A DNA stretch of 64,000 nt from Anaerolineae bacterium UTCFX2 (GTDB lineage: Bacteria; Chloroflexota; Anaerolineae; Anaerolineales; UBA4823): positions 1 through 64,000 of the forward strand of contig MWTA01000020.1 of assembly GCA_002050125.1 (NCBI GenBank), in the 5' to 3' direction. Numbering within the stretch: position 1 is the first letter of the stretch; each line of letters starts with the position of its first letter. Below are positions 28,135-30,180 of this stretch, piece by piece. The position numbers were made by a program, and so were the translations under genes. Under the pieces are notes generated by a model. It saw only the letters and a program-made list of their open reading frames with translations, searched no databases and was not told the origin of the DNA.

Positions 28135-28167
28135 GACCAGGAGGCGCGCAGGACGCGCCGTCTGGTC
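28135..28167 (-). terminator. Hairpin at the end of dtd
   Basis: GACCAG plus GGCGCG on one side pair with CGCGCC plus CTGGTC on the other (two 6-bp blocks around a 2x2 mismatch, 5-base loop). It overlaps the dtd stop codon. No T tract follows on the minus strand, so it may be a weak terminator or an mRNA-processing structure. Confidence 0.4.
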
Positions 28168-28603
28168 AACGCTCCAGCCAGATCGTCACCGGACCGTCGT
28201 TGTCGATCTCTACCAACATGTTGGCGCCAAATTCGCCGGTCTGCGTGGGGACCCCCAGGGCGTTCAGCTTCGCAGCGAAAAGGTCCACCAGGCGACGCGC
28301 GATTTCGGGTGGGGCGGCGTTGATGAACGAGGGCCGGCGCCCTTTGCGCGTGTCGGCGTAGAGTGTGAATTGGGAGACCACGATCGTTTCGCCGTGCACG
28401 TCAAGCAGCGAGCGGTTGATCTTACCTTGCTCGTCCTCGAAGATGCGCAGGTTGGCGATCTTCTCCACCAGATAGCTGGTTTGTTCTTCTCCGTCCTGGG
28501 GCCCGATCCCCAGCAGGATGACTATGCCCTGCCCGATTTGGGCGACCGTGCGCCCCGAGACAGAGACCCGTCCGCGGCGAACGCGCTGTAGAACCGCTCT
28601 CAT
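28166..28603 (-). CDS. dtd: D-aminoacyl-tRNA deacylase
   Basis: 145 residues, full length for Dtd. The two active-site motifs are present: [17 protein letters not shown] near residue 77-93 (SQxTL) and the C-terminal GPVTIW (Gly-cisPro). It removes D-amino acids from tRNAs, notably D-Tyr and D-Trp. Its position directly after trpS, with start and stop overlapping by four bases (ATGA at 28603), makes functional sense because TrpRS can charge D-tryptophan. It is the last gene of the T-box-controlled selW-trpS-dtd operon. Confidence 0.95.
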
Positions 28604-29607
28604 TTGCCCATCACTTTTGGAAGCCCAACCGCTTCCCGAACTTCCTGCATTGTCCGCTCTGCAATCGTATCAGCGCGCTTTCGCCCGTCTTCGAGCACCT
28701 CCCAAACCTGGTCCGGTTCTTGATCCAGGCGGGCGCGCTGCTCGCGGTAGGGCGCCAGATGGAGGTTCAGGTTGTGCGCCAGCATTTTCTTGCAGTCCAC
28801 GCAGCCGATGCCAGCCCGGCGGCATTCCACGTCGATCATGCTGACCTCTGCAGGTGAAGAGAAGACCTTGTGAAAGGAGAAGACGTTGCAGACATCCGGA
28901 TTGCCCGGATCGGTGCGGCGAATGCGCGCCGGGTCGGTCACCATCTGCATCACGCGTTGGGTGGTTTCCTCGGGCGAAGCCGCCAGTTCGATGTGATTGT
29001 CGAGACTTTTGCTCATCTTCTGCTGACCGTCAATACCCAGCACCTTGGGAACCTCGGTGGCTTTCATTTGCGGCTCGATCAGCACATTGCTGTTGTAACG
29101 ATAGTTGAACGAGCGCACAGTCTCGCGGGCGAACTCGAGGTGCGGCTGCTGATCCACTCCAACCGGCACGAGGTCGGTCTTATACAAGACGATGTCGGCG
29201 GTCATCAGCACCGGGTAGCCCACCAGCCCATAATTGATGTTATACGGCTGCTGGCGGGCTTTTTCTTTGAAGGTCGGCAGGTCGGTCAGCTTGCCCAGAG
29301 GCGTCACCATGGATAAATAAGTGTGCAGTTCCATGACCTCTGGCACTTGCGATTGCACGAACAGGATCGTCTCGGCGGGGCGAATGCCGAGCGCCAGCCA
29401 GTCGAGCGCCATCTCATAAGTGTTCTGGCGCAGGTTCTCGGTCGATTCAACGGTGGTCAGGGCGTGCACGTCCGCAATGCAGTAGACGCATTCGTAGTTC
29501 TCCTGCAAGGCGATGTAGTTTTGAATGGCGCCCAAGTAATTACCCAGGTGTTGGCGTCCGGTTGGACGGGCGGCGGAGAATACGCGGCCTTTTTTAGGTT
29601 TTGTCAT
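28600..29607 (-). CDS. trpS: Tryptophanyl-tRNA synthetase, probable [4Fe-4S] type
   Basis: 335 residues, class Ic synthetase. The HIGH-like motif is PTGRQHLGN (15-23) and the KMSKS motif is at 197-201. Cysteines 240, 262, 269 and 272 give the pattern Cx21Cx6Cx2C. Thermotoga maritima TrpRS has nearly the same pattern (Cx22Cx6Cx2C) and holds a [4Fe-4S] cluster near the anticodon-binding region. E. coli and Bacillus TrpRS lack it. The start ATG overlaps the selW stop (ATGA), yet a strong AAGGAG site lies eight bases ahead, so it can be initiated independently. Expression is predicted to respond to uncharged tRNA-Trp through the T-box upstream. Confidence 0.95.
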
Positions 29608-29855
29608 AACCTCTCCTTCAATCCTTTGCGGATGAGCGTGGTAATTTCACCAGATTCAGCGTGCCGGCTTGTTTGCAGTTTCGAATACACCAGCCGGTCA
29701 TTCACGCTGACTTCGAAGCGCCCGCCATCGGAGGGCGTCAGCGTTAGCGTCTCGATCCCGGCTTCGAATTGTTCGAGCAATTCGGCTGCCAGACTGACAG
29801 CCCGGTTTGTATAATGTCAAACGGCGCAGTAGACGATTTGAATTTTCATGCGCAT
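29604..29855 (-). CDS. SelW-like (Rdx family) selenoprotein with CxxU redox motif
   Basis: 83 residues when UGA at 29819-29817 is read as Sec 13. The sequence begins MRMKIQIVYCAVUHYTNRA: a beta strand leading into C10-A-V-U13, the thioredoxin-like CxxU of the SelW/SelT/SelH family. The family strands continue in SDGGRFEVSVNDRLVYSK. The C-terminal helix is EITTLIRKGLKE. The frame is open from the UGA to the TGA at 29606-29604. The start ATG 29855 has AGGAGG six bases upstream. A second ATG at 29849 is in frame. A SECIS-like hairpin follows the UGA. The likely role is thiol/selenol redox, with partner unknown. The gene is the first after the tryptophan T-box and its stop overlaps trpS. Confidence 0.85.
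29784..29819 (-). promoter_or_regulatory. UGA-Sec codon and SECIS-like hairpin in the SelW-like gene
   Basis: UGA occupies 29819-29817. GGCTGTC (29802-29796) pairs with GGCAGCC (29790-29784): 7 bp including one G-U pair. The loop is AGUCU with G in second position and starts 21 bases after the UGA. Size, spacing and loop G fit the general bacterial SECIS description. Confidence 0.75.
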
Positions 29856-29881: not shown

Positions 29882-29909
29882 AAAACCCCGCCGGTGATGC
29901 GACGGGGGT
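29882..29909 (-). terminator. Regulated terminator of the T-box leader
   Basis: ACCCC(C)GTCG (29909-29900) pairs with CGGCGGGGT (29893-29885) around a 6-base loop, with one bulged C and one G-U pair. The run TTTT follows at 29885-29882, 27 bases before the SelW-like start. Confidence 0.75.
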
Positions 29910-30151
29910 AGAGAGCCAGCTTCACAAAACGGGTTGGTCAATCGGCAGCCCGATCAAAGATCAGGACGGCAGATGAACCACCTGCCCGGATAACGGCGGC
30001 AAGACCGACGCAGGCTACGCGGAATGGCTCAAGCCCATTCCTTTCACCTTGCAGCTCAGAGGCCCATTCGGCATCGGCGTACAGACGGGATTATCACCAG
30101 CGCCCGCTCTCTGGGCTGTCGTCTCGATGCGTACTATCCCTCGTCAAAGCT
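29882..30151 (-). promoter_or_regulatory. Tryptophan T-box riboswitch
   Basis: Read on the minus strand. Stem I base: AGCT pairs with AGCT across a K-turn-like UUGACGA/UGA, then GAGG with CCTC. AGTA (30135-30132) opens the specifier loop, GCATCG pairs with CGATGC, then come the AGAGAG bulge and the GCTGGTGATAA distal loop, all standard T-box landmarks. The specifier is TGG at 30066-30064 after GAA. A stem III hairpin (GGAATGG with CCATTCC), the GCCGTTATC element and the tRNA-acceptor bulge AGGTGGTTC (29983-29975) follow. The UGG core is kept although the usual ACC after it is UCA. An intrinsic terminator ends it, so control is by transcription attenuation. Confidence 0.9.
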
Positions 30152-30171
30152 TTTTAGTTTCGATTGGCGAT

Positions 30172-30180
30172 AGTATATCA
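30172..30180 (-). promoter_or_regulatory. Extended -10 promoter of the T-box operon
   Basis: TGA directly before TATACT on the minus strand (30180 down to 30172). The start would be near 30165, just ahead of Stem I. Confidence 0.55.

Follow-up and report, generated by a model that had tools for sequence, protein, structure and literature searches.

In the window, by which we mean the whole 64,000-nt stretch of DNA that was analysed, a transcriptional T-box specific for Trp ahead of selW-trpS-dtd is supported by a covariance-model match, a UGG specifier codon, the presence of trpS downstream and the recurrence of this leader in about 15 related genomes. In this T-box, a compact module consisting of a GUGANRC strand, a UGGC site and an intrinsic terminator, named T1, probably replaces the canonical 3′ discriminator. 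The Trp T-box, T1, the conserved UGGC, the compensatory changes in a helix named A1′, the serial arrangement with a canonical discriminator in related leaders and the absence of that canonical part here can all be read in the sequence. Given that the leader does not carry the canonical discriminator and yet is a T-box by its aptamer and its relatives, we file it as a T-box variant with what would be a different expression platform.

The leader and its aptamer

The RF00230 model aligned to the leader from end to end (model positions 1-219; 30156-29956 of the minus strand) with a score of 56.0 bits and an E-value of 2.3e-11 in a 901-base search or 1.8e-11 genome-wide, bearing out the T-box that the initial annotation had proposed and had suggested checking with this model, although the score lies below the Rfam gathering score of 93. 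Scanning the window with Rfam at default settings consequently returned no T-box. All eight RF00230 matches in the host genome scored below 93, with the window leader the sixth best, and five orthologous leaders rescored at 48-70 bits, so that annotation by gathering score misses the window leader and these orthologues alike; T-boxes are present in 38 of the 38 genomes of the family. The features of the leader and of the genes behind it are as follows.

30172 to 30180, minus strand: putative extended −10 promoter element TGATATACT (sequence)
29956 to 30156, minus strand: stem I, stem II and IIA/B region, RF00230 match of 56.0 bits
30155 to 30139, minus strand: base of stem I, AAAAAGCUUUGACGAGG (sequence)
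30135 to 30132, minus strand: AGUA (sequence)
30064 to 30066, minus strand: specifier codon UGG (Trp) within GAA-UGG-GCC (sequence, RF00230 alignment)
29988 to 29997, minus strand: F-box GCCGUUAUCC (sequence, RF00230 alignment)
29932 to 29982, minus strand: variable accessory hairpin with UGGUUCA (29980-29974) in its 5′ strand (folds, relatives)
29919 to 29925, minus strand: 5′ strand of A1′, GUGAAGC, in the place of the RRRxG string and Stem III 5′ strand of canonical leaders
29915 to 29918, minus strand: UGGC, proposed site for the tRNA-Trp acceptor end G73-C-C-A (conservation, G73)
29894 to 29900, minus strand: 3′ strand of A1′, GCAUCAC, made of the T1 loop and the last base of the T1 5′ stem, pairing with GUGAAGC
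29882 to 29907, minus strand: intrinsic terminator T1, CCCCGUCG-CAUCAC-CGGCGGGG-UUUU, 8 bp, −15.0 kcal/mol
29604 to 29855, minus strand: selW-like Rdx gene with in-frame UGA at 29819-29817 (motif CAVU; PF10262 6.4e-21, TIGR02174 8.1e-17)
28600 to 29607, minus strand: trpS, tryptophanyl-tRNA synthetase (PF00579 4.9e-63, TIGR00233 2.6e-87)
28166 to 28603, minus strand: dtd, D-aminoacyl-tRNA deacylase (PF02580 4.8e-55)

The landmarks named in the initial annotation, namely the stem I base, AGUA, AGAGAG, GGUG, the UGG specifier, the F-box and the UUUU terminator, were all found again, with AGAGAG and GGUG both in stem I and the F-box, or IIA/B element (CCGUUA), at 29997-29988. The UGG specifier fits the downstream trpS and was the same in the aligned selW-trpS leaders, which had themselves been chosen by that specifier. 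The extended −10 element at 30180-30172, just upstream of stem I, predicts a transcript start at ~30165 and not downstream of 30060, a start that the initial annotation had held incompatible with its reading. TG(A/G)TATACT also lies 5′ of stem I in several orthologous leaders, a regular −35/−10 scan found no promoter, and a plain MFE fold of the whole leader was uninformative (z −0.59).

The gene order selW-trpS-dtd likewise held, by Pfam Rdx, tRNA-synt_1b and Tyr_Deacylase and by NCBIfam trpS and SelWTH, and the selW-like gene overlaps the start of trpS. Most of the ~100 trpS loci surveyed in Anaerolineales pair trpS with a UGA-containing selW, whether or not a T-box is present, and a few selW-like genes have Cys (loci L101 and L103). 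Downstream of dtd lies selD (28015-26948, minus strand), with an in-frame UGA at 27949-27947 and a CAGU motif, and the genome contains a tRNA-Sec gene (contig C26, 7000-7092). A second, divergent trpS paralogue is encoded elsewhere in the same genome (contig C29, 1762-2739). Three genomes (G004, G008 and G019) have a Trp T-box of the dual type described below on their second trpS paralogue; ahead of selW-trpS, these three showed no T-box with a UGG specifier.

The compact module and its distribution

Between the F-box and selW, we found no RRRxG-Stem III-AA, A1, UGGNACC bulge or A2 in the window leader or in the other leaders with T1 alone, termed single leaders, and the window has UUGUG where RRRxG is expected. 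UGGC lies directly 3′ of GUGAAGC. trpS loci were drawn from 38 genomes of the family and from 80 named genomes, and the leaders of 15 that have GAAUGG followed by an F-box were read. All 15 share GUG(A)NRC-UGGC, which precedes by about 10 bases a terminator whose loop is NAUCAC or similar. The terminator had been placed about 70 bases beyond the acceptor site in the initial annotation, a puzzling distance that disappears with the conserved candidate UGGC about 10 bases before the terminator.

The host has another Trp T-box, 5′ of a trpB-like gene (contig C10, 39792-40108), which carries the same module followed by a canonical UGGCACC discriminator with a terminator of its own. A covariance model of the module, R1, built from 24 modules, matched twice in this genome (E 7.6e-11 and 1.5e-10), both times in Trp T-boxes, and in 78 of 396 genomes of the class at E<=0.001; outside the class, the phylum sample yielded one match (G442, E 0.008), a search that may overlook divergent copies. 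A UGG specifier and an F-box preceded 99 of the 100 modules aligned, the remaining one being cut by a contig end, and the genes downstream were trpB-like (32), trpE (31), trpS (30) or unassigned (7). Among 37 T-box loci of the family set, all 16 Trp T-boxes carried T1 (E<=4e-5), and no T1 was found in the non-Trp T-boxes, which lead pheS, thrS, ileS, valS, serS and leuS (E>=0.049), so that the idea of T1 being common to T-boxes of every kind in these genomes was rejected.

In 86 of the 100 modules, T1 is an additional terminator within the Stem III loop; the canonical UGGNACC discriminator and another terminator come after it. The flanks in these dual leaders fit the RRRxG-Stem III-AA motif (PMC7583486), and in most of them a complement ahead of AA pairs with NRC in the 5′ strand; at locus L291, the canonical part is present with a longer spacer. 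The other 14 modules are without the canonical part and retain T1 alone, and all of them, the window included, belong to selW-trpS leaders of the window's family; the leader of the same-genus genome is one more single leader beyond these 14.

The UGGC site, at which the proposed tRNA contact would occur, read UGGC in 98 and UGGU in 2 of the 100 modules, a conservation somewhat overstated by the presence of UGGC in the search model; copies at the edge of detection also keep UGGC. At the canonical second site, UGGC occurred in 79 and UGGU in 8. Base 73 of tRNA-Trp, which the initial annotation had proposed to compare with its acceptor site, is G in 19 relatives as well as in the genome of the same genus, making UGGC at 29918-29915 a full Watson-Crick match to GCCA; the comparison could be made with these genomes and not with the host's own gene, as its assembly (83% complete) contains no tRNA-Trp gene. 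Conservation of UGGC merely as part of Stem III was rejected, since in 41 of 85 dual leaders Stem III ends its pairing short of UGG and UGGC is still kept, and single leaders, which have no Stem III partner, keep it as well. Another cause is therefore needed, for which, we infer, the tRNA acceptor end binding to this site is the natural candidate.

The strand 5′ of UGGC is complementary to the loop of T1. The GUGAAGC:GCAUCAC duplex has a stability of −5.9 kcal/mol, equalled by 0.8% of upstream windows of equal length. Across 65 distinct strand pairs, the mean was −5.8 kcal/mol and none of 5000 re-pairings was as good (z −3.8), counts that take the sequences as independent despite their shared ancestry; shuffled 7-mers averaged −3.9 kcal/mol, and a reversed-segment control gave no signal (1400/2000). 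The relatives show compensatory sets (GGC:GCC, GAC:GUC, AGC:GCU and GUAC:GUA), further sets being AAC or GAC with GUAUCAC and GUGGGGC with GUCCCAC, and position 6 of the helix is A-U in 7, G-C in 44 and G-U in 8 pairs. The register is flexible, with a mismatch or bulge near position 5, and the trpS leaders of one clade (L052 and L053) pair well in GUGA:UCAC only. In the trpE leaders of one clade (L009, L010, L012 and L014), the T1 loop region GCAUCAC has become GUCUGAC, with complementarity to GUGAGAC kept.

The stem of T1 differs in sequence among relatives with its pairing maintained. The leader has an intrinsic terminator and a predicted competing helix with compensatory changes in relatives. 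Given that the partner of A1′ includes bases of the T1 stem and that T1 loops are as short as four bases (UCAC), A1′ and T1 appear to be mutually exclusive, suggesting that A1′ should replace T1 rather than coexist with it. Three other pairings were discarded: that of the T1 loop with the GGUGA loop of stem I is good in the window and lost in relatives with a GCUGA distal loop (by eye), CUGG:CCGG within the module is broken in L043, and an extension of A1′ by GGC:GUC, seen in a partial-transcript fold, is kept within the family and not in other families. L043 also has an insertion between T1 and selW, a long inverted repeat (around GGGGAUGUUUAGGCGGGC).

Proposed switch and alternative readings

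From the conserved elements we infer a tRNA contact with UGGC, sensitivity to charging, antitermination at T1 and, in dual leaders, a handover to Stem III. tRNA-Trp would be bound by stem I through the UGG specifier, and while the 5′ half of T1 and its loop are emerging, GUGAAGC would pair with GCAUCAC to form A1′. The G73-C-C-A end of an uncharged tRNA would pair with UGGC and stack on A1′, delaying or blocking T1 so that selW-trpS could be transcribed, while charged tRNA would be unable to pair and stack in this way and T1, at −15.0 kcal/mol without tRNA against about −6 for A1′ (−6.3 in a partial transcript), would win. In dual leaders, Stem III would form with the same 5′ strand after T1, and the canonical discriminator would test the tRNA again at the second terminator, T2. 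Most Anaerolineae Trp T-boxes, 5′ of trpE, the trpB-like gene and some trpS genes, would then work with one aptamer and two serial terminators, and the window leader would perform the first, noncanonical tRNA check alone. We lean towards regarding this as a second kind of aminoacylation-sensing switch, with an antiterminator that has no A2 and in which UGGC adjoins a helix formed with the terminator loop, placed in series with the canonical switch in Anaerolineae Trp T-boxes and acting alone in selW-trpS leaders. Known structures rely for their steric sieve on helix A2 and the purine string of Stem III, neither of which is visible in the window leader, and this counts against the proposed mechanism.

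The initial annotation had instead taken UGGUUCA (29980-29974) for the acceptor bulge, and an ordinary T-box in which this site binds the tRNA end and switches a distant terminator is highly improbable, even though a local hairpin GGCAG-GUGGUUCAU-CUGCC exists around it, the same-genus genome shares the sequence, and UGGU could wobble with G73, a combination common in Trp T-boxes (PMC7778990). In the folds, UGGUUCA becomes part of a long accessory hairpin between the F-box and the terminator module, in which GGUGGUU (29982-29976) pairs with GACCAACC (29939-29932), with no ACC, no A2 and no overlap with the terminator. Only the same-genus genome retains this hairpin sequence; many relatives carry other sequence there, often AAAGGGUAU...GUACC, and the whole hairpin is gone in L048 and L055. 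On this comparison with relatives, UGGUUCA was rejected as acceptor bulge, and the suspicion that the switch departs from the textbook was right as to the departure and wrong as to its reason. Most of these T-boxes have an accessory hairpin, which reads GGGUAU...GUACC in many relatives, between the F-box and the RRRxG string.

T1 could also be a constitutive or leaky attenuator outside tRNA control, dual leaders being regulated at the second terminator only and the window leader being a decayed T-box. The much greater stability of T1 than of A1′ without tRNA and the loss of the canonical part in the window would suit this reading, but the near invariance of UGGC and of its place right after the helix strand, the maintenance of A1′ through compensatory changes in single and dual leaders, and the fact that the 15 single leaders read have kept stem I, the specifier and the F-box intact make it unlikely. 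Less likely again is a pseudoknot between the T1 loop and the GUGA string that hides the purine string and stabilises the OFF state; it relies on the same complementarity, and GUGA overlaps the RRRxG string required by the canonical discriminator, but four-base loops cannot pair fully with the stem closed, the NRC part pairs with bases of the T1 stem, and UGGC is left unexplained. Ribosome-controlled attenuation at T1 through a Trp leader peptide, to which the Trp genes downstream and the one UGG in the module might point, is scarcely credible, as that single UGG is out of frame with any conserved start (by eye) and the stretch from F-box to T1 varies from ~20 to >80 bases among leaders. The observations taken together are most consistent with A1′ and UGGC acting as a tRNA-dependent antiterminator of T1.

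Comparison with known T-boxes

T-boxes are regarded as sharing an unchanging core in their 3′ discriminator, and the structural explanation of charging recognition depends on A2 and the purine string of Stem III. A T-box working without both would test which parts of the sieve are essential. One account describes the discriminator as essentially the same in every T-box known (PMC7583486). In a literature search whose coverage was without two central T-box comparative-genomics papers, we found no description of a terminator nested in Stem III, and the module is apparently undescribed, with some prior notice of double terminators in the Trp T-boxes of Chloroflexota being possible.

The window leader shares with canonical transcriptional T-boxes stem I (K-turn, AGUA, AG bulge, GGUG loop and specifier), the F-box, an intrinsic terminator and an aminoacyl-tRNA synthetase gene, and its module follows the order of the canonical antiterminator, a helix strand and then UGGN. 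By contrast, it is without RRRxG-Stem III-AA, the UGGNACC bulge and helix A2, and its UGGC adjoins a strand of 6-7 bases that pairs with the loop of the terminator itself. Translational T-boxes couple another output, the antisequestrator, to the same tRNA-sensing logic and keep the canonical discriminator (PMC7583486), whereas here an intrinsic terminator would be combined with a different antiterminator. In Dehalococcoides, of the same phylum, the accessible part of one report (PMC2494555) gives three T-boxes and places Trp T-boxes 5′ of the same genes, trpE and trpB-like, and this part mentions no extra terminator. Terminators in series for Trp genes are likewise found in the tandem trp T-boxes of Bacillota (PMC12452182), which repeat two or three whole T-boxes, whereas the Anaerolineae leaders have one stem I and two terminators, the first nested in Stem III. 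Dual leaders would thereby place two terminators in succession under a single aptamer for the costliest amino acid, as a compact counterpart of the Bacillota tandem T-boxes.
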